Assembly (NCBI GenBank): GCA_011033025.1
Contig: WFMF01000093.1
Span: 62,001 to 126,000, forward strand
From: Beroe forskalii
Taxonomy: Eukaryota > Ctenophora > Nuda > Beroida > Beroidae
Direction: 5' to 3'
Length of the DNA stretch: 64,000 nt
The first letter of the stretch is position 1; each line of letters opens with the position of its first letter. Below are positions 9,901 through 39,900 of this stretch, piece after piece. The notes under the pieces are model-generated. The model had not been told where the DNA came from, ran no database searches, and saw nothing but the letters and a program-made list of their open reading frames with translations. Position numbers and translations under genes: made by a program.

Positions 9901-12900
9901 TACATTTCACAGTTTGTGTAACATATTATATTATCTACATTTTATTGGAATTTTCTCCCGATTGTTCTTTGTACAAATCACGTCAAAATGTAATTAATCC
10001 ATTTTAGAAATACCTCTTCCTTATTATTTTATTATTCATTTATTTATAACAGTTCGATTGGTAGTTAAGATGTTTCGTGTTTCATAAGTCCAGAACAGGC
10101 GTGTTTTGTATCTAAGTGAGCCTTTGCTTGTTGCTTGTTGTGAGCCTTTTGTCACTGTAGGATGGAGTTCCTCAGCAGTTTGCCTGTGGTCCGGTACATC
10201 AGGAGTTTTTCTTCCCTGGGGGACCACGAGCCTCTTGTGCCCCGAGATGAGCTGACCGAGGATTACCACACTTTCCGTTCTCTCAACTTGAAGGTTTAAA
10301 GGTGTTCTATGTACTAGATCATAATTAAGGAAAGTGAATTATTCATGACCAAACACCTTTAATCCCTCTCACTTTGAGAAGTGTGCAAATACCGCCGAGA
10401 CCGAGTTGAGGTGGTTGCACAGTTCTTCTTATGATTAGTCAGCGCAGGTACGAGGTGTCGAGGTACTACTGTAATAGGCGGTAATAGGTGCTAAAGGAAA
10501 CTGAAATTCAGGTGATCCAACCGGATTTTGAGGCGAGCACAATCTCTGATTTGTAGTCATTAAGACTTAAAGATTATAAAGAAGTTAAGAGTAAATTGAG
10601 AGGGTAAATACTGTAGTTCTAAAATTCAAAACCATTAAATTAAGAGTAAATTGGGCAGATAAGTACTGTAGAGTGTAGTCCTGATTAATTTACTAGTTGT
10701 GGAGTAAGTTAATCCGGGGGGGGGTAAGGCAAACTTTGGCAAACTTTGGCAAACGCTTCCACTTTTTTTGGAGTTTGCCAAAAAAAGTGTTTGCCAAAGT
10801 TTGCCAAAGTTTGCCAAAGTTTGCCAAAATTTGCCAAAATTTGCCAAAAATACCCAAAAATTTTTGCAATTTCTGATTTCTTGTCCACAGTTCATAAAGG
10901 ACGTGTGCATAATGGTTTTCAAAGGAGCTGAATCGATATCCAATGCTTAATTTTCATTCAGACCTTCCCCTTCGAGGCTTTACGCCTGGACCTTCCCTCT
11001 CCAAGCACCATACTGTTTACAAAAAGGCATCCTAAGGCTGAAGGACCAGGGTTAGAAATTTCGAGAACATTTTGGTTCGAGAAAAGAGATGTTTATAATT
11101 CCCAGGCATGGATTCATGTATCTACTATCTACTTATCTTTAACCAGTTCATCAGTTAACGTATCTTCGGCAAAATGGTACCACAGGAACATGACCAAAAT
11201 TAGCCTGCATTAGTATCCATGGGGCCATAGGCTGAGTGTAGGATAATTTCAAAAATTTGCCTCCATTGAGGCTAATGGTTGCAATAGTCTAATTTTCGAA
11301 AAAAGCCTCCACTCAACCTCTATGGAGGCTAAAATTTTGATTAAGCCTCCACTGAAGAATAAGCCTCCAATAGCCTCCACGGAAACTGAAATATAACATT
11401 TTCGTGGAGGCCTAATGGAGGCTAGTGGAGGCTATTTGGAGGCTCACTGGAGCCTTAATCAATTAGCTAAAACTGGTAAAATGTGCACTAATTTAGTAAT
11501 TTGAAAAACAATTTATAGATACATAGATTTAAACTTTCAGATAGCTCCAAATATCCTCCACTGTGCTCCACACAGCGTCAACTAGGAACCAATCAGCCTC
11601 CACTAGGCTCCACCCAGCCTCCACCAGGCTCCAACCAGCCTCCACTAGGCTCCACTTAGCCTCCACTGGGCTCCACACAGCCACCACTAGGCTCCACCCA
11701 GCCTCCATCAGGCTCCAACCTGCTTCCACTAGGCTCCACTCAGCCTCCACTAGGCTCCACACAGCCTCCACAAGGCACCACTCAGCCTCCACTAGGCTCC
11801 ACAGAGCCACCACTAGGCTCCAACCAGGCTCCACCAGGCTCCAACCAGCCTCCACTAGGCTCCACACAGCCTCCACTAGGCTCCACTCAGCCTCCACTAG
11901 GCTCCACTCAGCCTCCACACAATCTCCACTAGGCTCCACTCAGCCTCCACTCAGCCTCCAAGAGGCTCCATCCAGCCTCCACTAGGCTCCACTCAGACTC
12001 CACCAGTCTCCAGCCAGCCTCCACTATGCTCCACTCAGACTGGCTCCACTAGGCTCCACTCAGCTTTCACTAGGTTCCACACAGCCTCCTCTAGGCTCCA
12101 CTCAGTCTCCACTAGGCTCCATTCAGCCTCAACTAGGCTCCACTCAGCCTCCACTAGGCTTCACACAGCCTCCATTAGGCTCTACACAACCTCCACTAGG
12201 CTCCAGTCAGCCTCCACTAGGCTCCACTCAGCCTCCACTAGGCTCCACACAGCCTCCACTAGGCACCACTCAGCCTCCACTTGGCTCCACAGAGCCACCA
12301 CTAGGCTCCACCCAGCCTCCACCAGGCTCCACTCAGCCTCCACTAGGCTCCACACAGCCTCCACTAGGCTCCACTCAGCCTCCACTAGGCTCCACTCAGC
12401 CTCCACACAATCTCCACTAGGCTCCACTCAGCCTCCACTCAGCCTCCAAGAGGCTCCATCCAGCCTCCACTAGGCTCCACTCAGACTCCACCAGTCTCCA
12501 GCCAGCCTCCACTATGCTCCACTCAGACTGGCTCCACTAGGCTCCACTCAGCTTTCACTAGGTTCCACACAGCCTCCTCTAGGCTCCACTCAGTCTCCAC
12601 TAGGCTCCATTCAGCCTCAACTAGGCTCCACTCAGCCTCCACTAGGCTTCACACAGCCTCCATTAGGCTCTACACAACCTCCACTAGGCTCCAGTCTCCC
12701 ACTAGGCTCACTCAGCCTCCACTAGGCTCCACACAGCCTCCACTAGGCACCACTCAGCCTCCACTTGGCTCCACAGAGCCACCACTAGGCTCCACCCAGC
12801 CTCCACCAGGCTCCAACCAGCCTCCACTAGGCTCCACTCAGCCTCCGCTAGGCTCCACACAGCCACCACTAGGCTCCACACAGCCTCCACCAGGCTCCAA

Positions 12901-15900
12901 CCAGCCTCCACTCGGCTCCACACAGCCTCCACTAGGCTTCACTCAGCCTCCACTTGGCTCCACTCAGCCTCCACTAGGCACCACTCAGCCTCCACTTGGC
13001 TCCACAGAGCCACCACTAGGCTCCACCCAGCCTCCACTCGGCTCCACACAGCCTCCACTCGGCTCCACTCAGCCTCCACTAGGCCCCACACAGCCTCCAC
13101 TTCTATAAAGTGAAGGCTGAGTGAGCCTAGTGGAGAGCCTGGCCACCCAGCCTCCACTAGTCTCTACAAAGCTTGTAGGCTTCCACACAGGCTCCACTAG
13201 GCTCTACACAACCTCCACTAGGCTCCAGTCAGCCTCCACTTGGCTCCACTCAGCCTCCACTAGGCCCCAATCAGCCTTCAATCAGGCTCCAATAGGCTCC
13301 ACTTAACCTCAACTCAACCTCCACACAACCTCCACTACTAGTGAAGGCGGAGTAGAGCCTAGTGTAGAGTGGTCGGAGGCTGAATGGAGCCTAGTGGAGC
13401 CTAATGGCTCTACATAGACTCCATTAAACTTCCACTGGGCTATGAGCAGCCTCCACTACTAGTGAAGGCTGAGTGGAGTCTAGTGTAGAGTGGTCGGAGG
13501 CTGAATGGAGCCTAGTGGAGCCTAATGGCTCTACATAGACTCCACTAAACCTCCACTGGGCTATGAGCAGCCTCCACTACTAGTGAAGGCTGAGTGGAGT
13601 CTAGTGTAGAGTTAGTGGAGCCTAGTGAAGGATGAGTGGAGGCTGAGTTGAGCCTAGTGGACCACTAGGCTCCACACAGCTTCTACTAGGCTCTACAAAG
13701 CCTCAACTAGGCTCCAATCACTCTCCACTAGGCTCCGCACAGCCTTCACTAGGCTCCATTCAACCTTCACTAGGCAATTAGCATTCTCAACATGTCGGGT
13801 TATGTTGCATGAATACATGGAAACTGGCCAATGGTCACGGTGGGGCCTTACTATTGATTTTATGCTGCAGAATCAGACTTATGTAGCGAGGATGCTTCGG
13901 TTTTAGGGCTTCATAGAACAGTTTGATCGGACTACTTAGTACTTAAATGCATAAAACTTAAAGTAAGAGGTAATGAAATATCGTATTTGTTACTGTAGCC
14001 TTCTACTCTATTCAATGTGGATGTAGTCTCAGTTACAGCTTCTGGATAACGTCAAAATGTGAAACAGACCTTGGGAATCGATTCAGCACCTTTTAAAAGC
14101 ATATTATGGGTACCTAAAGTGTTGCCAAAGTGGCTAAAAAGGTGTTTTATTTTTGGCAAACTTTGGCAAACTTTGGCAAATGCTTCCACTTTTTTTGGAG
14201 TTTGCCAAAAAAAGTGTTTGCCAAAGTTTGCCATAGTTTGCCAAAGTTTGCCTTACCCCCTCCCCTAATCCGTAAATTCCCCCCAGGACTATTAATTTAC
14301 TAGTTCTGGAATGAATTAATCTGTGTATTCTCCCTCAGGACGGAACGCCAGGCACTGCTATAGAGCTCGACACGAGTACTGAGCTGGAAGAGCCGCCGTG
14401 CAGGAGCGAGGACTTCAGAAGCATCAACAACGAAAACGTGAGTACAAATACCCTTCAAATACCCTTCACTTTAACGACAATGCGAGAGCAACTTGAATAT
14501 GAGTTAGTTTCATCAGGAATTAAACAGGAATTGTTGAACCGCAAGACCAAAGGTGCCTTAAACTTCTGTTTGGACAAAATATAGATTGCGTACATTCGTC
14601 ATATTTGTGGCGTAGATTCAAAACTTCATAACACAGTGCAAAGCTTTACACGCGAGTGCTCCTTTATAATATCAGTTAAGTCCGGTCACGGCGGAGTATT
14701 TGGGAGTTTTGGTGTAGTGGCATCGAGTCAAACTGTACACGGCCGATTGGTCCATGGAATTGAGTAGAAGTCATCCCCGTACAATGATATCCAAATGTAC
14801 AATCGTTGTCAGTTGCAGTACCTGCCCATCATTGGTCCACGTGCATGCGCGGCGCGCGCGATAAATCAAGCTCATAGGAAAGGGAAATTAAGCGCCACCA
14901 TACGGGATCAACGGACAGCAGGAAATGCGCCGGCAGGCGCACTTCGATCCTGTTTGGTATGATTAAATGCAAAACAACCAGTTCAATGTTGAAAAGGGAC
15001 TTTCTCCTAACTAACAATAACCTTTACGTGTTCACTTGTATTATAGAGGGCGTACCAGAGGTATTTAAAGTTTCTAATTGTAACGCTGGTTGTACTTGAA
15101 ATTTAACGAAAGGATACGAGTTTTTTTACTTTAGTGAGATGCAATATAAACTACAAAAACAAAGGTATATTTTATTTAATGACGACTAAAACGAATGTCA
15201 TAATAACAATTTCTTGTTTTTTTGAAAAGTTGAGTTGTAGAACTAGAATGCAGATCCCATTTAATTCAATGCAAGAGAAGATCATACTTTGCAGTGCCTA
15301 AATTTTATCAGGAAATGAACATTACATGCCATTACACACTTTTTCAAGCTAGTGGGGGCCAAACCCCCCTAGATTTTTTCTTGAGGGAGCCTTTTGAAAA
15401 CTAAGGGGTTTTGAATTTTCATTTTAATCAAATTTTTCATTAAAAGTCCACTAATTTTGCCTTTCAACTACAATCATGATTATGTTTGCTTTGATTCTGA
15501 GGAGATGGATTTTAAACTTTTAAGGAAACTTCAGTTTATTTGAGCTTGACTTTATACTTTAGACGGTACTCCTGTTGAAATCTAGAAATCAACCCTTGAA
15601 TTTAGGCACTGCAGACAGAGTTATGAACCAAAGACCAAATTATGCGTATCTTCAAAAATCATTACCAATCATGATGTGTGATTTTAATTCAAATGACTGC
15701 CTTCATGGTCCAGATATGGCCAAGGAAACCCATACAATAGTTCACTAATCCTCATGTTTACTTCACGTGTATCTGTCCCTTGTGACTGCGGTTGGTGAAG
15801 TTGTTGTTCCTGGTGCAGAGGTAGCGGTAGATGCCTTTTGTGGTGATCTTCCTGGGCCCCAGGTCGAAGTAGGTGGCAGCATCATCCAACTCATCCATAT

Positions 15901-24900: not shown

Positions 24901-27900
24901 GTACTATGTACCATACTAGCATAAAGCTTTGACATGTCATGTCTGCTTGAAATTACATATTTCAAACTATTCAGAAAGTATGGAAGTAGAAACACTAAAC
25001 ACCATCTAAATTAACAATATCATCATGACGTCTTGAGCAAACTCCGTGCTTTATTGAGGATTTACACATTCCTTTTATCAGTCACAAAAAATACCACTTT
25101 ACATCTATCAAGTTTTACTTGTTACTTTGTTTTTTGTGAAGAATGGCCAGAAATTAACATTTTATTTTATTTAACAAACTGACAACCATAGGGATAAAAT
25201 CGTGTGTTTTTCGGTCAGATATGTGGTTCTGATCATGGTTAATACCACTGTGGTCATCTTATTATTACAACCTATATGTCATTCCAATTGATTAAATCAG
25301 AAAAAATCCTCCAAATCAGCAAATCATCCATTCATCGTAGAAATGAAATCGTGGCTCCTTGAATTTCCTATTAGTAATTTCCTAACTTGCAGATTCCAAA
25401 TAAGGCAAAAATATTTTAGTAATAGAGCAATAGTACCCTAATCATCAATCACTACAGCATTGTTTACAGGTACTCAATTTTAAAACAAATGGGTGACATA
25501 ATAATGGAAATAATTTGGAAAATGCATAACTATGTCATACTCCAAGTTGTCAAAAATGAACTGTTGGCACTGAAAAGAAATGTTTCACCTCGATACTTCT
25601 CTATATTATTGCTGACCAATGCTCACGAAAGCACGTCAAAAACTTCCATATACTGTTAGTACCTACTCTGAAATTACTATAATAGGTATTTTTAGATTTC
25701 CTAGACGAATCTTTGATACAACAGAGGCACATTATAGTACTTAAAACATTCTTACAATTTCTTATTTCTCAAATTGAGAAACCTAAATATGTGAAAAATT
25801 ATTTTCAAACTGGGTTATAACTCAAGTTATAACCTGAAAATTAATAGAAAAAAGCAAACAATCTTTCAAAAATAGGGTTATAACTGGAGTTATAACCTTT
25901 TTTCGGAATTTTGGACTGTTTTATTCGTTACTAAAAAGGTGATATGTTGAGTTATAGCCCTATAAAATTTATTTTATTATTTCAAATTATTTTAGGAGGT
26001 AATAACTCGGGTTATAACTTTTTGGCAAAACTTTCTAAAAAAATTTTGTTGCTGATTTTGCTCAAATCACTTCAAAATTTCACTCACGGGTGCGCAATGA
26101 GATTCTGAATCACTTGGTAAGGTTTTTTTGAAAAGGTGATAACTCGAGTTATCACCTTTTGATTTGAAGGTGACGACATGTAAAATAACACGATGATTTT
26201 AAGAGATGTCGACCAGTAGACGCATTAGGAAATGGAAAGAGAGGTTTTCCTCCATCAGTAATTCGCCTCCCTCCAATTCAAGCGATGAGGAAGATACTAA
26301 CGTCCTTATCAATAAGGTAATTAATTAGGTAATAAGGTACTTGTTTTGATAAGTCGCAGATAAGACGTAACCAGTCTTTCTCTCAGTATTCAGACAGTAT
26401 ATTGACAGAATTTATCAAAATTCTATCTCCGAACTCATGCTGCATCACAACGCTCCTAGTTTTTCCAGATATTTTCTGTTTATTATTTGTCTGATCGAAT
26501 CTAATGTATTTCTGTTTGGTAAGAATTCGATTTTCCCAAGTTTCCTCTTCCTCATGATTAAATGACTGTTATCAAGTCCATACACACTACACATTCACCC
26601 CACATTCACCCCAAACACACCTGCACAGTAATTCCAGATGTGGCCACCCAAGGCAGTCGTTCAGAAGCCAGAGTTCTTGAATACTCCCTGTAACCCTGAA
26701 TTGTGGTCCTGTGGCGTTTGTCACATGAACAATGGGAAAAACCACACAGGGCCTTGGGTTGATGTTCTTTTGTTCATGTTCAATGAACATTTATTTCCGG
26801 TCACAAACGAACATCAACACGAGGGCCACAACACTCAACACGAAGAACCCAAGAGGAATGAAGATGCCCTGATAAGCCTTGGAGAGCGAGTAATTATTCC
26901 AGAAAAGCATCTTGCCATCATGTCCCCAGCAGTGGATCGAGTCGTACTGGTAGATGGTCGAGTTGATCCTGTTCCACTCCCTCTCCACTATCGCCTCATT
27001 GTCAAGGTAGCCGCTGGTACAGATCGGTACCATGAAACAGCCCTTTGAGACGGAGGTGACGTCTACATGGAAGGTGCCAGGCACTCCAGTTGGATCGACT
27101 GATCCATTACCCAGGGTCTTGTAGTAGGTTCCCTTGATGGTGAGGCAGGGGTAGAGGCTGTGACAGGTGGTGTCTTCGTCACCACAGTCGCACCTGTAAA
27201 GTGGGGTGTTAGGGAAGTGGAATGAGCGAGTGATAGGGAATCGGAGTGTTAAAGTGGGGGTGTTAGGGAAGTGGAATGTGCTAGTGATAGGGGTGTTAGA
27301 GTGTGCTAGTGATAGGGAAGTGGAGTGTTAATCGGGTAAGGGCTTGTTCCCCAGTTTTCCAACAGTTGAAGTTTTACAGGATCATGCCATGGGAAGGAGG
27401 AGCTAGTAGAGACATCAATGGTTTTAATAAGTCCTGTGAATCAGAGGCTCTGATGCACATTTACTCACCTCCCCCCCCAAAAGATACAAGACCCCTCCAT
27501 AAACTGAATTTCAAACTCGGCGAACGGGCCGTGAGTTAAATAGTAGTTATGATATTCACCTTATAACGGGCGCAGTGTCCATGTCCACTATTTGGTCCGC
27601 CACCACACACAACCCTGGTTTGTACTTCGCTCCATGGAAGTTAGGTTTAGACACCAACACCCCACAGATTACCAGGGCTAGCAGGGACCCTACTCCTACA
27701 GTGAGGGCTGAGACGAAGAGGAGACAGTCACGACATCCCATAGTGTCCTGTTGTTAGATTGGAAGTTTTTAAAAGGGGGAGGGGTTCACCCCTGATATAT
27801 TGAAAATCACACTTTTGGGAAAATCCCCTCAAATCCGCTCAAATTATTGGCATATATCCTGGCAAAACGGCATTTTCATATCCCAATATCGTGATTTCTC

Positions 27901-30900
27901 AAATACCAGGTGTGATCCCCCTAAGAACTTGCGTTGCTGTAAATAAATCAACGAGGTGGTAGCCGAGTGATTTTATATTCAATAGCGATCACTTAAATTC
28001 TCAAGCCACACGATAAATGGTAATCGTAATAAGTCTAATAATACACAAAATCAATACACGAAATGATTAGAAATGCAATACTGTCTCAATCGTTTGAATA
28101 AATGTACAAAACTACAAAATATACAAATCATGCACTATCACACGCATATCACTGATACTAATAATATGCTACTGTAAAGCTTTATCGACAAGATAACTTT
28201 ATGCATTTATAGTCTGTATTCAGTGTAATTAGCACTGTTAATTGAAATTTTAATTGACATGATCAATGCATAAACTCTAGACGATAAAATTTAAATAAAT
28301 TTATTCCATGAGCCAGGCGCTTATATCTGCTGAATGCTCGGTGAAGGGATGAATAAAGGCCTTCTCGACAGGATTTTATGCATCTGTCATTGAAATTAAG
28401 GTTATACTGGCAATTTGACACGATTAAGGTGTATTGTGTAAACATCTGTCTGATGGTTACATAAACCAAAACTACGCTCTTTTTAATGTGATTGTCCTCG
28501 GCCCAGTGGAATAATTTTAAAAAGTGGCTGGGAATCTGTAACTAAGAGTAAAAAGAGGCTTTTTCAGCTTTGGGTAAGGACTAGCTGGTTTTGACATGTT
28601 TTCACTAAAATGACCGAAATTTAAAAAAAATAAGTTCAATTGCTGTTAGAAACAATAGAAACGTGCAAAATGTTTTTCATTGAATATGGTAATTATTTTA
28701 AAATGTTTATGATGGCTATTTAGATAGTTTTCACTAAAAGTTTGACCAAAGTCAAACACAAGGAAATACCGCGGCTGGTTTAGAATGCGGTGGCTGGTTT
28801 AGGAATGCGGTGGCTGGTTTGGGAATGTGATGGCTGGTTTGGGAATGCGGTGGGGAATGCAGCTGCTGGATTCGGATTAGGCACCGGGAAAGGTCGATTA
28901 TGGTATTCAGCTCTATGAATTTCATGATTTTGAGTTCATCAATTACAGAATGTGTCCAGAAAAGCTTATTTCGTTCGAATTTAAGCTTTTTTTCGATTTC
29001 TTATTTGGAAATTTGACTGGGAATCTAATTCCTAAATTCCCCATATTATTCCACTGGGGTCCTCGGGAATGAATGATTAAAATGAAATAATCAATGCATC
29101 TGCCCAATTAGAATACATACGAGGTAAGCTCTATCAACCTACAACTCACGTATACGAAGAGTAAAACACACCTCGAGTAGGCTATAGTATGACAACTAAG
29201 AAAGGTAGAAGGCACTGTACTATACAAGTCAGTACAAGTCACAGGACGTAGTTCTCACTAGCGTGTGTGTGTGCTTGTTGATTTGTTGGTTTGAAGAGTA
29301 CACATATTTTCTGAAGGTATCGAGACAAATTATCGTAGCTGTTGAAATAGCATGCCTCTTCAGACATTTCTAAGTGTCGTGAAGTCTATGGGATATGTAT
29401 CATGATAGAGGAGACATCTTCACAAATGTCAATAAATACTTATTTAGACTATTTTATAAATTTTTGTCATCGAGATAATTGTATAATTTGATGCGATTTT
29501 CAGTACCAGTTGAAGGTTGTACATGCCTGGTATGCCACAAGTCAAAATTACGTGTTATAATACCTGACCTTGTTTTAAATAAATGATGTATTACGAAGTA
29601 AAATAAAATAAATCTGTTAAAAGTGTTAAAAACTTCAAATCATCGGTGTGTCTGCAGTAAAAAGGATCAACATGTATAAACATGTATGAAGAAAGTTTTT
29701 AGTTCGCACGCAAATATTGCATACGGCTTTTTCTGAATTCTGAAAGATCGTAACTATTAAAGTTCGAAACTATATTAATAAAGTTCGAGTATTCATTACC
29801 TCACGTGATTTCCTTTGAGTTCGATATCAAATAAACCAATCAAACGGTTAAATCTGACCGTGGGGTTGGTCCATTTGGTATAGTGCGAAAAGGCGTGGAT
29901 TCACCTAGCTCTGCACCGATTTCAAATACGCGAAGTATAGATCATACACACCCTATCAGCCAAGTCTCAAATGATTAGTGATTACGTTACACGTAATTGC
30001 AACAAATAGTAACCACAGTATTTTGTTAAAACTTCTAAAATTAAGTAAGTAAAATCTGAACTTTAACATAGTCTCCAATAACATATCCCAATAGCTATAC
30101 CTAATACCAGAAAACACAGGGGTATGAAAATACCCATGTAAGCTTTAGAGAGCGAGTAATGCATGGAAAAGTACATAGCCCCATCGTATCCCCAGCATTG
30201 AAAATACTGCTGATCCTTGACCCTGTGGAAGGTTTCCTCCCAATACCACTGTACTAGCTCCTTATTGGAGACAAAGTCAGGGGTGCAGGTTGGCACTCCG
30301 AAACATTGCTCTGAAACGGCAGAGTAGTCAGAGTGGAAGGTTCCAGGAACACCAGGCACATCAGTGGAGTCTGCGTAGTAGACCCCTTCCACGGTTATAC
30401 AGGGGTAGTAGGTCGAACAGATGGATTTTTGGTCTTTTCCACAGTCACACCTAAGGGAAAGTAGGGATATGTTAGGAAGTTCAGTTGTGGGATCTAGAGT
30501 CGTGATTCAAGGATAGAATTGACAACGATATTTTGAAAAGTCTTTTGGAATTATTCAACTTATCGGTATAGGGTACATGAAATGTCACAAATTCAAACAC
30601 TACATATAAGCATATTTGTTTTACAAGATCAGCTGAAACCTCCTTAACAAAGTAACAACCCACCTGATAAGTGGGGCAGAGTCCACATCCACCTCTCTAG
30701 TTGTCATTTCACACACTCCCTCCTTAAACCTTGCACCGTGGAAATTAGGCTTTGAGAGAAGGATAGCACAGAGAACCAGTGCTACCAGAGAGCCGAGTAT
30801 AAGGTTCATGGAGACGATAAACGTTGCTAACTTGCAGTAGTAGCCCATCCTCAACTGTTAGGTTATTTAGGCTTTATAAACGTTGCTAACTTGCAGTAGT

Positions 30901-33900
30901 AGCCCATCCTCAACTAGGCTCTAGGTGTATCTGGGTTAAATCAACCTCAGGTTCCGACAGGGCCCTCAGGTTCCGATGTAAGGCTCTTAAAATCGCCGGC
31001 TGAGTTCAAAACAATCTGAGTGCAAAAAAATCCTATCTCCATTTTTTGTGTACAGCCTCCTGAAAGGCCCCTCTACCCTTTAGAATCGATTTCAGTATCA
31101 TAGCATGCTATTTAGGCATGTTATACAATTTAGAAAATTATCTTAAATCCACCTTTTAAATATTTTGAGTGTAAGAAAAGCCTAAGGTACCTTAAGATAA
31201 TTGATGGATTGATATGCAAAAATAATTGATTCCAACTAAGGAGATAGGATACTTTTATCCTTGACAAGTATCCTATCTCCAGTCATGTTAGAATATTTTT
31301 GTCAGTCGTTCTACTTAAAACTTATATTAAATTTGGAGATAGGATACCTAGATGCAAATACTTTTACACAGCATTGTAATACGTAATAGGGCTATTATTT
31401 TCCCATTAATATTGATACTTAAAAGCTTACTTTTAACCTAAAGCTTAAAAAGACTAGGTACGGTATGATTACTCAATCTATATGCCAATAAGCATCATGG
31501 AAAAGACAGGGTATGTTCTTTTTTAAGTTTTAAAAAGGTTGCAGGTGTAACCTTGTTCTTGGATAATGAGACTGGGGCACTTCGATGGGTCTTTTATTAA
31601 GTGTTGTGCCTTGTGGTACAGCCAGGTTATCAATCTCTCCTGAGGCTTATATAGTTATATCACTCGACTTCACCAAAGGGTATTCAAGTAAATGACCCCA
31701 CTCGAATGGCACCTCGTGGAATTAGAACTGGTAACCCACTCTACCTCAATTCATAAGTAGTTCATGAGGGAGAGTGTCGTGTTAGCAATCAAAAGGTTGC
31801 TGATTTGATTCCCACCCTGACTACTGTGCTAAAGGAGAGGGCTCTTACCTACAGAGCCACACGGTTCACTCAACTGTGGGCGACTGTAGCCCAAAAAATC
31901 TAGCCCAAGATCCCAAATTTAGAGTAGGGTATGTTTTTTGTTGTTTTTTTTGGTTTGGATTTTTGAACTTTTCGGTCATTTCACACCAATGTGTTTTTTG
32001 TGTAACGCATATGTTCTTATCACCCCTTCATATTTGGTCCAATCTCATTCCCATAGGGAAGATAAGGCTCAGACCGAAGATAAGTTTTCAAATTTCTCAT
32101 ACAAAAAATGAACCCAATCTGAGGATCATCTTCGCTTTCGAGTTTGATCTATTTCTTTTCCAGACGCAGCTTAGTTTTAATCAGAATTATTTCTCTTATT
32201 TTGAGAAATAATTAACCGGATATATCCGAAGATTATCATCACCTTGGGTCATACATTGATTGATGCTCGGCTTAAAAAGGAGCATGTATTGAAGAGTGTG
32301 TTTTGATAAACAAACTACATGAGTCCAAAGATTATTATCTCTTCTAATCTTAGCGAAGATGAATTGAGATATTGTAGACATGGCAGTGGAGCCAAAAATC
32401 TGGCTCCACATGTTTGAAAGCAAACTCCAAAATTTGAATACAAAACAATGATATTTTCTATCTAACAACAAACCGAAATGAGGACCACAAAATCATATCA
32501 GGGGGTTAATTTAAGTTACTTAGGATGTCTGGCTTCTGGTGCTGCCGCCCCAGACCCCTGCTCGTCATAATTTTCTGAAACTGAGTCTCATGTCATATTT
32601 GGACAACGATGTTATGTTCTTGTGACGTCTGGCTTCTGGGGGCAGCTGCCCCCAGACCCCCGCTTGTCCTTATATTCTAATCATTTAATATTGTAATTTT
32701 TCCTTGCCTATGAGGTCTAAAACCAAGCAGAAATAAATCTTATCAAATCATATTGGCTGAATTTTGTGATCAAAGGAAGCAGGTCTTAGAAAAATCACAA
32801 ACTATTATGGTTCGGATCTAATTTTTTGGATACAGTATGGGGTTAAATGGCTCAAAAATGAAAGCTGAAAACCCGAAGATAAACTTTCAATTTCGGGAAG
32901 ATAAGGATAGTGATTTTCAATTAATATGAACCTATGGTTCTTATTGATACTCAATGGTTTCCAATCATTACAGAAGGGTTAAATCAATATTTTAAGGACT
33001 TTAAATTACCATTTTAGGAGCATTTTAAGAGCCCTCAGTGCTTTTTGATAAGGATCAACGGAAAAACATGATATAGCACGGGACCTTGGTCCAACAGTGA
33101 TTTGATAGGAACAGCAAAGGATCAAAAGGTGTCGAATCAGACGATACTGGTCTAAACAAGAGAGACGGTATTTGGCCAGAAGATCAGATCAGAATGACCA
33201 GTGGGTTACGTGATCAGCTAATAGTCAGCAGTGGGACAGTCAAGAAATACCAACTGGGTTATCAGCTAAGTGTTGTAAACTTGCCACCAGTGGTTTCGGC
33301 AAGATCAGAAACGCATGTAGGTCAGGTAGGATTGGGAGTCTCAGGTAGGGTCAGGAGACACCAGCTGTAGGTCAGGTAGGATCAGGACACGCCAGTTAAG
33401 CAGTTATAGGTCAGGTAGGATCAGGAGACGCCAGTAGTTCACTTACGATCAGGAGACACCAGTACACAGTAGTGAGAAGGTCAGCTTGACCTGGCCAGGT
33501 AGTATCAGAAGACACCAGCTGTAGGTCAGGTAGGATCAGGACATGCCAGTTAAGCAGTTATAGGTCAGGTAGGATCAGGAGACGCCAGTAGTTCACTTAG
33601 GATCAGGAGACACCAGAAGGTCAGGTAGGATCAGGAGATGCCAGTAGGTCAGGTACGATCAGGAAACGCCATTTGATCAGGTACGATCAGGAGACACCAG
33701 TAGGTCAGGTAGGATTAAGAGGCTCAGGTAGGATCAGGAGACACCAGCTGTAGGTCAGGTAGGATCAGAGGATCAGGACACGCCAGATAAGCAGTTATAG
33801 GTCAGGTAGGATCAGGAGACGCCAGTAGTTCACTTAGGATCAGGAGACACCAGAAGGTCAGGTAGGATCAGGAGATGCCAGTAGGTCAGGTACGATCAGG

Positions 33901-36900
33901 AGACGCCATTAGATCAGGTAGAATCAGGAGACGCCAATAGGCCTGGTAGGATCAGGAGACACCAGCTGTAGATCAGGTTGGATCAGGACACGCCAGTTAA
34001 GCAGTAATAGGTCGGGTAGGATCAGGAGACGCCAGAAGTTCACTAAGGATCAGGGAGACACCGTAGTTAGGTTGGATCAGGAGACGCCAGTAGGCCAGGT
34101 AGGATCAGGAGATGTCAATAGGTTAGGTAGGATCAGGAGATGTCAATAGGTCAGGTTGGATGAGAAGAGGCCAGAAATAGGTCAGGTAGGATCAGGAGAC
34201 GCCAGTAGATCAGGTAGGATCAGGAGATGCCAGTAGGTCAGGTAGGATCAGGAGACGCTAATGGCTCAAACAGATACCTATTCAAGTGTCACTAGTTAAA
34301 CGTAGGTCACGCAAGAAGTACCAGCTGGGTCAACACTCAACAGGAAAGTGTCTGTGGCTGTCACATATTATGGTCAATGGTCAGGCTATGGTCGAAAGTC
34401 AGAAATTAGGGCAGGTAAGAGTTGCCAGTAGGCCAGATAAGATTCGTCAGTAGGTCAGGTAAGAATCGTCACTAGACAGGTAAAAAGTCGCCAGTAGTTC
34501 AGATTAGATTCCTCAGGAGGTCAGGTAGGGTCGTCAGTATGTCAGGTAAGAGACGCCAGTAGGTCAAGTAGGAGGCGCCAGGAGATCAGGTTACAGTTTC
34601 CAGTGGTCCGATGGGCAGCTGGGTCATGGGGAGTAACCAGTCAGTGAGCCATTCAGGCAACATGCACAAATTGTGCCAGGTCACGATTTGGTCAGGTTAG
34701 AGTCACCACCTGAATCGGTTAAGGGTCATCAGTAAGCCAATAGGTCTGGCAAAACTCATCATTCAGTCAGGCGATAGAGCAAGAGGCCCTAGTTGGTCAG
34801 GTCAGAGTCACCGATGAATTTGGCAAGAGTTCCAAAGCTTGACAGCACTCAGCAGGTCAGCCAGGAGTGACAGACGATTAGGCAAGAGGTCCCATTGAAC
34901 AGGTTATAGCCACCAGTGAGTTAGGCAAGAGTTACAAGCTGGGTCTGGCATAAGTCACCAGTCACTGAGGCAAGAGTCAACAGAAGGTCATCAAGAGTTT
35001 CCAGTTATTGTACAATATTGTACATTTCACTGTTAGGTGATACCTTAGCCCTTCAAGCTCTGGAAGCATGAAATGACCGTATCAAATAAACTTTAAGAGC
35101 CACTGAATGTAAAATATAAGTTCAAAAACAACTGATTCATTGGAAAAAGCCCCAGAAATTAATAAAATGTAACCCAAAAACCTAAAAAACCAAAAAAAAC
35201 CTAGCCCAAGAATCGAAAAATAGGGTAGGGCTAGGTTTTTTTGGGCTACAATCCCCCAACTGTATATTAATTGAATCTTGCCATAGGTGATATTCTATAC
35301 AAGTCGAGTATACTAACTTACTAACTCCAAAATAATATACTCAGAACAGTGACTGTTTTGAATATTTCTCATTTTTTGACTATCTTAACTCCATTTGTTT
35401 CTTTCTTTTAACTCCGACTAATATCATTGAAATCATAACTCTGATTATTCTTAAATCCACAAATATCCTATCTCCAGAGATAATTAGAATACTGATTATC
35501 CTAACTCAAATACTATCATTAAAAATCAGTAAATTTGAACTATCCTAAATCCGCAACTATCTTATCTCCAAATAATTAACAAACCAATTATCCTAACTCC
35601 AATTTTAAAAAATTCAAATGCTGATTTTCCAACCTGCTTTAGCATTGATAAAAAAGCAATGATTGAGATCCATAGACAATAACCCAATATAAAATAATAG
35701 ATGCTAAAAAAATTTCCAATCAAGCAGTATTGGAGGATAATTAGTTTTTTTGATTATCTCGAAAACTAAAAGTGGGTGGAGATAAGATAGTTGGATATAG
35801 GATTGTTTTGAACTGGACCGGCGAAATCAAATAATGCATAATTTAGCTTCAAAAAAGACTTCTTAATTCTTACGACAACAGACAAAATGCACCGAAAAAG
35901 ATTAAAAAATACCCAACTTTTCCATTAATAAACAGATTAACTCGGATTAAATACTTAACCATGAAAACTGATCCTAAGTTGATGATAATTTCTTGGACAA
36001 ATATTATCAAAAACTAAAAAATGTTTAATCAACTTAGTTACAGAACGATTAATTATAGTCCATTATCATGCTGATAAAAAATACGAGTAATAACAAGATA
36101 TCTCACTTAACGCAGGTGATGCCGAATGAATCTGAAACTCTCATTTCCCAATGTGGCGACATCTGAATCAGAGTACTCAGTACAAGCCAATTCTAGATAC
36201 CTGAATAATGTCCTCAAACGTAATAAAATAAAACAGCCCTTTATATTTCAGTTTTACTTGTAAAAGTTTAAAAATGTCCTCAAAATAGTAAAGATTTACA
36301 AGATAATAATAAATATTATTTATAAGATTCATCACCAAAAAGATTTTTTTATAATGGCTTAAATCTTAACATTTTAAAATCACAAAACCTAAAACTTTAA
36401 TAAGTTAGCAAATATAGAATTTTGTTGTGTTTGATCAATCATCAAGCTGCAAAGCAGCTGATCAAAGGTATCCTCTACACTTAGAATATTTCATCACCAT
36501 CTTAGGAACAAAACCCCAACACCAATACCCACAACCATGCAAGCAAGTGGTATGAAAACCCCCATATACCCCTTAGCCATTGTATAGTCCATCCATAGGT
36601 AAAGCTTCCCATCCTTTCCCCAACACTTAAACTCCCCCATATCGTCCAGAACCTTGTACATTCTTGTCCAGATCCTCTCCACCAGCACTTGGTTGGACAC
36701 GAAGCTGCTCGTGCAGGCAGGGACCACAAAGCACTCCTTTACAAGGGACTCGTAGTTGTAGTGGAATGTTCCAGGGAGGAAGTCATTGCTCCCATCTTCC
36801 TTGTATAACCCTTCTACTGTGATACAGGGGTAGAAACTCCGACACTCCTCATCTCCTCCACCACAGTTACAACTGAGAGAGGGGAACATTCGGGGGGGGG

Positions 36901-39900
36901 GGGGGGCGTTGGGGCGGGGGCGGCGACCAGTATCATCTCCTCCACCACAGTTACAACTGAAGAAGTCAGATGTGTGGTGTTCAGTATTCAGTGTAATTGG
37001 TGCTTTAGTGGGAGGGAAGAGATATGCAAAAGGCTACTTTGAGAAAGTAAGAAAGCTACTTAGACTTGTAAATTGGAAATAGCTGCAACAGAGATATACC
37101 CTGAGAAATGAAAAAAGATTAACAAGAGGTGCTCATGAGGAATAAACCAAAATGAAGACAATTTAAAGAGAATAAAGCCAAAGAAGGAAGATGAAGAACA
37201 AGGAAGGAAACGAAGACAATAACAGAATAAGGTAGCAAAGAGAGGGTGTTGTCAATCATGTTACCTTTCAAGCGGTGCTGCATCATAATCCATATCCTCA
37301 GTTGTTGTTAGTTGGCAGGTGCCAGCTTTGAACTTCGCCCCATGAAAGTTGGGCCTGGAAATGACCACGCCGCATATAATGAGTGAGATTGTACCGCCTA
37401 TGATCAGGAGCAAGGATGTAGTTAAGAGGGAAATCTTGCACCAACCCATTTGACCCATGATGACGGATGTCAACCTACATTGATAGACTATTGTTATGAG
37501 TTGAACCCTGAAGGTTTTTCTTGTAGTTTTAAAATTTTCTATTGTCTATTTCCATTATCAATTGAATATAATATTATTATGAATATCTTCCTTATACTGT
37601 AGTAAATTAGCTAAGTACTAAATAATACTTTTCGTCAAAGACAAAAACAAAGAATATTGTAAATTACATAGAAATTGGAAGATATAATGTAAATAGTATT
37701 TAAAAAGTCATAAATTCAACAAAGCAAAGAGTTAATTGCAAAACAGTTACCTATTGAAATACTAAAATCTTTCTTGAAAACGCCTCTCATAAAACTGAAA
37801 TTTCAAGAAATTGTCTTCAAGTCCACTGACTCATAAAAAAACCCAGCGACTATAAAATCTAAGAGTCAAGCAGCAAGCTAAAGAAAGAAAACCCAAAAAC
37901 CAAACGCAAAGACTCCGCCTATTACTAAGAAAGCAAGGGGTATAAACACCCCCATATACCCCTTAGCATTGGAGTACTCCATCCAGAGGTACATCTTACC
38001 ATCATGTCCCCAACACTCGAACTCCTCGGAGTCCTTCAGGGACTCGTAGACTCTGCCCCAGTACCTTGGAGGGGGGTGACATGTGTAATTTTGCATATGT
38101 GAGTAATTGAGGCATTTTAAAGGGAACTCAAAAATCATTGGAATGAATTATATATGAGTAATTTGTATCGAAAATACAGAATTTGTTCAAAAGTCATCAA
38201 CATCAGAGAAATACCCAGTACCTCTCCACCATCGCCTCGTTGGAGGTGTAGCTTCTAGTGCAGGGAGGTATCACGAAGCAGCCTTTGGAGAGGGCCGAGT
38301 AGTCCCAATGGAAGGTTCCTGTTAGAGAATTAGAGATGTAGTCGAGGGAAGGGATGGTTAGACATTAGCTATAAGGTAAGGGTTCTAAAAACATAATTAT
38401 TTCATAAATTTATCTAATTCTAAACTACTAAACGGGGGATGGATCTACAAGAGATCCTAACAGAGTCCCTAGCACGGGACCTCCCTGTTGCCCTGATGGA
38501 AACGAATCTTTTACAGTTTTACCTCTCCAGGACATAAATCTATCAGAAATAGTAAATAACAATCAACTACTATTACAACAGTTCCGTTCACTGGATCCGA
38601 ACCAATGCCCCCTTCCCGGAATGTGCCCTTGATCACGACACAGGGATAGTAACTGTCACAGACCTTCTTACTGCCATCATCAGCACAGTCACACCTGAGG
38701 TAAGGATTGGAGTGAGCGTGTACCTGCACCAGGGCTACCACTTAGAAACATGATAAGTTGTTATATATTATCATACATTGGTTACCTGTTTATAGTCGAA
38801 TCTTTGTCGCTGATCTCTGTAGTTATGAATTGACAAGACCCTGGTTTGAACTTTGCCCCGTGGAAATTGGGCCTGGACACCAAAGCCCCGCATAGGATCA
38901 GTGCAAGTAGGGAGCCTACTATCAGGACCAGCACAATGGAGAACGCTATTAGCTTATCCCGGCCCCAACCAGATATCACATCCATCACTTGAAACGACAT
39001 CTACATTTGACGACTAATTACTTCCTTAATAGTGCAACTGCTATATATTTTGGTATGTTTTGTTGCAAAACTGTTAAAAACGATTACTTTTCGAAACAAC
39101 TCTTATTAGGATATATGTTCATCACTGTAGTGGTTGCAGTATTAGTATGTAATATGGTTCGTAATAATGGCTCGCCCCTTCGGGGCTCGACATGATTACT
39201 CACCGTATTACTAAGTTACTACACATGTCTTTCAGTCTATACCATCTGGACTGTTCATAAAATTGTAATCAAATTTATAGCTGAAATTTAATTCAGTCTT
39301 TCAATTTTAAGTTTGTAAGAAAATTGTTCTGGAAGCCATTTAATCTGTACAATATGCCGAAAAGTTCTTGAAATTTTGTTTTAGTTTTTTGACGACCATT
39401 TCTATCTCATTTATGAGCAAATCCTGAAATGTGGCCATTAAATTGAGAAATCTGTTATCAATAAACAATTGATATGTTCAGATCTCCATCAAATAATTGA
39501 AGGTGTCTGACAATAGCCAAAATAGATGATAATCATTGAGTGACATTTGGGGTCTCCAAGTGGTGCCCCCGTTGAGACTTTGAGAAAAACAAGTGTCAAA
39601 TACGCGTACAAACATTTTACAAACTTATAAACGAAGTACAAAACTAAACGAGCTCCAGAAAACGTCCATTCCACAAGAGGAATGTGCAGTTGCGGGTGAA
39701 GCTGCAGGAAACTGTATATTATTATTTTTGACACGAGAAATTATATAGCTATATAACGTAGAGCTGTAACGCATATTATTGAAGTTTTGAAGCTATTGGC
39801 ATCACTTTAACCTGTCAAACTTTCCTCACTTCCCATGACACTTCATATTAGATAATGTGTCTAAACTTCCAGCTATTCTACGGTAACTTTTTACCTCATG

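Follow-up and report, generated by a model that had tools for sequence, protein, structure and literature searches.

Intron gain by transposon insertion is well established; the literature covered here comprises PMC9860276, PMC3443670, PMC4202315, PMC12124190, PMC3296678 and PMC7789003. In the model drawn in Figure 1b of PMC3443670, a transposon enters an AGGT site, the site is duplicated and an intron results. For introners, PMC9860276 applies a strict criterion of at least four introns that are similar to near both borders and reside in unrelated genes. A single case is described from Drosophila, where intron 3 of Dsec-GM26034 was made by the retrotransposon Doc1053 (PMC3296678). Introns of Daphnia are explained in PMC4202315 by the repair of staggered double-strand breaks, which is accompanied by direct repeats of 4-12 bp.

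Here we analyse an intron in one of four KCNMB-like genes (A, B, C and D) on the minus strand of the window, that is, the whole 64,000-nucleotide stretch under study (G000:C1058:62001-126000, from a genome of 216 Mb in 1,134 contigs). The genes of the window are spliced, which marks it as eukaryotic.

Results

An inverted duplicate of gene D, here called D', lies outside the window at a distance of about 69 kb (G000:C1058:167730-171219, L002). Spliced D passed the cut-off of the profile for the beta subunit of calcium-activated K+ channels (PF03185 CaKB; 31.4 bits, cut-off 25.1, residues 23-188) in a profile search for which the protein was built with the D' donor for intron 2. Searched as single ORFs without exon 1, paralogues B and C scored 24.9 and 17.8 bits, below the cut-off, and for A no family was reported at E 0.01. 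With an E limit of 1, spliced D matched no PDB chain. Immediately 5' of the start codon of D (39027-39213) sits a dispersed repeat, about 187 bp long, which is missing from D'; 237 first-look candidates were obtained for it in the genome, and the 40 that were scored showed mostly 79-88% identity. The features of the locus are compiled in Table 1.

Table 1. Features of gene D, its paralogues and the D-specific intron, in window positions.
Feature	Position	Strand	Remarks
Paralogue A, ORF without intron	26791..27327	-	
Paralogue B, ORF without intron	30063..30506	-	
Paralogue C, ORF without intron	36494..37033	-	63% identity to D, residues 1-83 of a 90-residue query
Gene D, exon 1	38786..39000	-	
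Second D intron, absent from A-C	38319..38584	-	holds a SINE-like repeat
62-bp core of high-copy SINE-like repeat within intron 2	38424..38485	-	
Gene D, exon 2	38585..38694	-	3' end set from the D' donor; D has GA in place of GT
Gene D, exon 3, upstream of the putatively transposon-derived intron	38222..38318	-	
D-specific intron, 157 nt, GT-AG, phase 2 (AG|G)	38065..38221	-	D' counterpart 154 nt
Probable target-site duplication AGGTACT, donor side	38217..38223	-	gives AG|GT donor; length read against the family's 6-7 bp
Transposon body, about 150 bp: the element's left end with its terminus on the acceptor side, probably internally deleted	38067..38216	-	from alignment; best matches 38215-38068
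Terminal repeat of the element, GGAGGGGGGTGACATGTG	38068..38085	+	exact family terminus C1058:100071-100085 = window 38071-38085
Probable target-site duplication AGGTACT, acceptor side	38060..38066	-	gives AG acceptor and first coding bases
Gene D, exon 4 with stop codon, downstream of the putatively transposon-derived intron	37878..38064	-	

An earlier note on this DNA had claimed that copy D is split by a 157-base GT-AG intron and that a 10-bp direct repeat lies across its donor and acceptor. Both claims were confirmed. The intron reads GTACTG...CCAAG on the minus strand (38221-38065), within the context ...GAGAGGTACTGGGTATTT...CACCCCCCTCCAAGGTACTGGGGCAG..., and the repeat AGGTACTGGG is found at 38223-38214 on the donor side and at 38066-38057 on the acceptor side. 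Removal of the 157 nt restores the coding sequence exactly and regains the frame of the paralogues, as had been stated for the excision of the intron plus one repeat copy; the unspliced reading into the intron ends at a stop after five codons. Paralogues A, B and C, said to be uninterrupted at this position, indeed each have an exon that stays open between the cysteine motif (RCDC or similar) and the stop codon, and C is the most D-like of all paralogues after D' (63% identity). The statement that this single exon is split in D held for the intron at 38065-38221, but was incomplete, since D is split twice (38584-38319 too).

Direct repeats of the form AGGTN6 with a spacing of 60-500 bp were counted in the window, with 60 first-order Markov windows as control. 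The Markov windows contained 0.28 such repeats on average and 2 at most, versus 131 in the actual window, where 126 fell inside the tandem array at 33.3-34.6 kb, 2 more inside the array at 11.5-13.3 kb and 3 outside arrays, D among these. Taken alone, the direct repeat of D is weak evidence for insertion. Both arrays are long: the one at 11544-13324 has a 21-bp unit with several frames open, the one at 33341-34566 a 28-bp unit (TAGGTCAGGTAGGATCAGGAGACGCCAG).

The check that the earlier note had proposed, a search of the genome for further copies of the intron sequence, used the intron, extended by four bases at either end, as query. It returned 37 matches: D, D' and 35 others dispersed over many contigs, which showed 71-80% identity and reached at best from 38215 to 38068. 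Besides D', nothing more than 80% identical to the intron copy came out of this own-genome search. Of the 39 rows obtained with a 501-bp query that included both exons, two were D and D' at full length, two were short stretches of paralogue C and 35 were confined to the intron, except that one of these extended five bases past it. Since the intron body has 35 other genomic matches, the best of them outside D with an E value of 3.4e-27, chance is ruled out for the D-specific intron.

The matching sequence represents one end of larger dispersed elements. Their terminus GGGGGGTGACATRWG occurs 38 times in exact form in the 216 Mb, two of these in D and D', and the reversed control of this pattern 0 times. 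Most copies start with a G run followed by TGACATGAG; some have GGGGGGGATGACATG and a few are without the start. Judged by these matches, the body of the D-specific intron is a transposon and belongs to a mobile-element family. The tandem-duplication model, which the earlier note had also offered, did not hold, since the body consists of transposon rather than exon sequence; it matches the dispersed family, and on C1058 its only matches are in D and D'.

The far end of the elements, CATGTCACCCCCCCC, was found by comparing the copies on C558 and C25. It is the inverted form of the start, and a search with it recovered further copies. Paired copies, of which 14 measured 3.9-9.6 kb, have the inverted termini GGGGGGGGTGACATG and CATGTCACCCCCCCC. 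Comparison of the left and right flanks revealed target-site duplications of 6-7 bp in 12 of the 14 valid pairs (ten of six bases, two of seven bases). Fifteen putative pairs had been compared, but the one on C675 was mis-paired across opposite strands and was left out, giving 12/14 instead of 12/15. The two misses have an incomplete right terminus (C625) and an incomplete left terminus (C802), and three of the ten six-base duplications (C603, C461 and C293) require one base of the terminal run to be counted. Family copies are rich in tandem repeats, with large internal ones in L068-L070 (C558, C25). No transposase was recognised by eye among ORFs of at least 110 aa in the parts of elements read (L064-L070).

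Terminal inverted repeats (TIRs) combined with a near-fixed length of the target-site duplication characterize TIR DNA transposons and MITEs. Going by their ends and flanks, the members of the dispersed family are TIR DNA transposons that make 6-7-bp target-site duplications. The copy in D retains the acceptor-side terminus, and its donor side holds at most a 6-base remnant of the terminal repeat. Without a second intact terminal repeat, it is therefore not a complete MITE as it stands.

A non-LTR retrotransposon with 5' truncation had been suggested by one common and one variable end (26 of 30 loci, which were chosen for the terminal motif). It was rejected on account of the inverted termini with 6-7-bp duplications at the true far ends, and at the variable ends no duplication was flush with both ends. 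When variable ends were compared, 11 of 17 copies had only scattered matches of 5-7 nt, and 3 of 26 copies had a match of at least 8 nt, all of them 1.2-1.5 kb distant; the one in L056 is part of a longer repeat in its flank. Among the short or one-ended copies on C181, C378, C872, C858, C613 and C639, inspection by eye disclosed no D-like border of a further intron; the C613 copy runs to the end of its contig.

At the acceptor-side border of D, the element terminus GGAGGGGGGTGACATG (plus strand) adjoins AGTACCT with one T between. On the donor side, an element-internal position about 157 bases in is followed by CCC and then by AGTACCT. The exact 10-bp repeat exceeds all 12 family duplications; given their length of 6-7 bp, a 10-bp target-site duplication was rejected as the main reading and retained as a rival only. 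Because the right end of the family is a C-run and its duplications measure 6-7 bp, we take the duplication in D to be, probably, the 7-bp AGGTACT (AGTACCT on the plus strand), with three extra bases that agree by coincidence. The CCC would be the rest of the right terminal run, and the target also has CCC there, so that the repeat looks like 10 bp. An overlap of the same kind, between terminal run and duplication, is seen in the copies on C603, C461 and C293. The donor-side letters are AT-ACCC in D and ATGTC-C in D', and loss of three bases from the right terminal repeat ATGTCACCC could yield either.

AGGT-containing duplications thus border the intron on both sides. That it was born from an internally deleted TIR transposon inserted at AGGT is, in our view, very probable. 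An internally deleted, non-autonomous copy would have entered an AGGT site in the coding exon of D, with its left end facing the acceptor; the deletion would have started near position 157 of the left end and reached into the right terminal repeat. The 7-bp duplication AGGTACT would have put AG|GT on both sides, one duplicate providing the donor GT and the other the acceptor AG, and this origin of the splice sites holds under the 7-bp and the 10-bp readings alike. Just before the acceptor, the terminal C-run of the element (gene strand) would form the polypyrimidine tract. A TTACTCA motif, which ends 35 bases before the intron end, stands where the branch site belongs and may act as a splice signal. 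The donor GTACTG is weak compared with the GTRAGT consensus. Splicing would take out the element with one duplicate and leave the coding sequence unchanged. At the level of sequence, the transposon identity, the terminus at the border, the direct repeat, the absence from five other paralogues and the conserved coding flanks are demonstrated.

The most serious alternative, unlikely as we consider it, is a staggered double-strand break in the exon that was repaired with a transposon-end fragment as filler, where fill-in of 10-nt overhangs gave the 10-bp repeat and no transposition took place. The exact repeat of D, which goes beyond the 6-7 bp of the family, would fit this course of events, as would the donor side that ends at an element-internal position, and staggered-break repeats of 4-12 bp are reported for Daphnia introns (PMC4202315). 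However, the insert ends on the acceptor side with the element terminus, at most one base from the repeat, and random capture would make this a coincidence. Moreover, the repeat common to both sides in D' is only AGGTACTGG, and the donor-side letters of both copies can be taken for remains of the right terminal repeat.

We regard it as highly improbable that D already had an intron of its own here and that the transposon entered it afterwards. Only a few bases separate the element from either splice site, and the repeat crosses both exon-intron borders; similarity to both borders is the filter by which PMC9860276 excludes such cases. Secondary insertion does seem to occur in this gene, as intron 2 contains a SINE-like repeat that occupies only part of it. 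This second intron (38319-38584) is found in D and D' but in none of A, B, C, C239 and C469. Its SINE-like repeat is about 130 bp long by eye, with an approximate flanking repeat, and gave 273 first-look candidates in the genome, 40 of which were scored. The rest of intron 2 had no scored match outside D and D' except short extensions of the SINE-like repeat.

Comparison of the exons of D with those of D' gave 24 synonymous against 2 nonsynonymous changes (p=2.8e-14 versus neutrality, under which most changes would be nonsynonymous). For exons 3-4 the ratio is 8 to 0 (p=2.6e-6) and for exon 4 alone 3 to 0 (p=0.007). Since the exons changed almost only synonymously, D and D' are probably both spliced and functional; with a stop after five codons in the unspliced reading, selection on exon 4 would not be expected without splicing. 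The chance that copy D was broken by the transposon and is no longer a gene appears very slim. This early stop and the GA at the intron 2 donor of D would agree with a broken gene, but the predominance of synonymous changes since the D/D' split, in exons 3-4 as well as overall, and the GT-AG borders at all three introns of D' argue against it.

At the donor of intron 2 (38583-38584, minus strand), D has GA where D' has GT, and an in-frame GT is located 18 bases upstream of it in D. Copy D may use this upstream GT, splice differently from D' or be decaying; unlike D', it might be mis-spliced at intron 2.

A protein search of the genome identified seven family loci, namely A, B, C, D, D' and one each on C239 and C469. 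The D-specific intron is present in D' and absent from all five other paralogues found (A, B, C, C239 and C469); the intron in A-C lineages that the earlier note had named as a refuting result was not seen among the paralogues. In the tree, the C239/C469 pair is separate from the other five loci and the order among A, B, C and D is not settled; a single switch of intron state is enough (support 75/88; 74% of 200 bootstrap trees). That the intron was gained and not lost is strongly supported, and so is the proposal that it arose on the lineage of copy D through an insertion leaving direct repeats, with five of five other paralogues intron-free and a body from a TIR family. Loss is untenable in any case, because the intron body is a transposon. 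Intron loss is common in general and the paralogue tree does not order A, B, C and D, but an ancestral intron is almost certainly not the explanation: it must be gone from every one of A, B, C, C239 and C469, and this reading offers no reason for the transposon body, for a terminus located at the splice site or for the direct repeat.

D and D' are 92.5% identical over 1,327 bp and have the D-specific intron in common, with differences at 5 of 154 aligned bases. As read from these two copies, the gain preceded the D/D' duplication. Alignment with 14 family copies showed 36-48 differences from the intron in about 160 positions (a few flank bases included), and its nearest relatives are 20-23% different. 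The gain had been called recent, which these results do not support. In a nearer subfamily, eight copies had only 7-11 differences from L035 in about 195 positions, flanks included. With the intron far from the family copies and the nearer subfamily tight, the element of D stems from an older wave or from another subfamily. At synonymous sites of exons 3-4, 8 of 56 differ between D and D', above the intron rate (Fisher p=0.007); six of these eight are in CpG contexts, and the difference was therefore not read as constraint on the intron.

Discussion

Since transposon insertion is a well-established source of introns, the D-specific intron represents a new, clear case of a known mechanism. It resembles the model of PMC3443670 in the insertion at AGGT, the duplication on both sides, the splice sites taken from the target and the unchanged coding sequence. 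It differs from the model as drawn there in that the insert of D appears internally deleted and that splicing of D is predicted from sequence.

With the introners described in PMC9860276, D has in common a non-autonomous DNA transposon as source, with TIRs and target-site duplications, and with those of Florenciella in the same paper the co-option of both splice sites from the insertion site. In contrast to these introners, D is a single event, common to D' by gene duplication, and the paired family copies measure 3.9-9.6 kb. The earlier note had mentioned introner-type insertions. In the strict sense of at least four such introns (PMC9860276), introners were not found by our searches, which give lower bounds: only D and D' were recovered, and these are gene duplicates.

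The intron of Dsec-GM26034 (PMC3296678) is likewise a single intron made by one transposon insertion, with recognisable target-site duplications and in an animal. Its source is a retrotransposon, however, and one duplication lies 15 nt beyond the intron. That insertion, as described, kept the frame and added sequence, whereas the coding sequence of D is exactly restored. The Daphnia introns share with D the direct repeats across exon-intron borders, but the account in PMC4202315 names potential sources for only four inserts; in D, the body could be identified as a transposon end, and the terminus of the element lies at the border.

Short derivatives of the family that land at AGGT in the right orientation might become introns as a rule, the end of the element being a ready-made 3' splice region in which the TTACTCA motif is followed by a C-run that abuts the target-site duplication. 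We consider this quite improbable. If true, the family would be a young or under-detected introner family with further derived introns missed by our searches, and the second private intron of D might be another early product.

In the D-specific intron, one genome displays the source family, the insertion site, the direct repeat, the likely origins of the splice signals and intron-free paralogues, together with evidence of continued selection on the gene. This makes it a good case for how a large element is reduced to a splice-competent intron.
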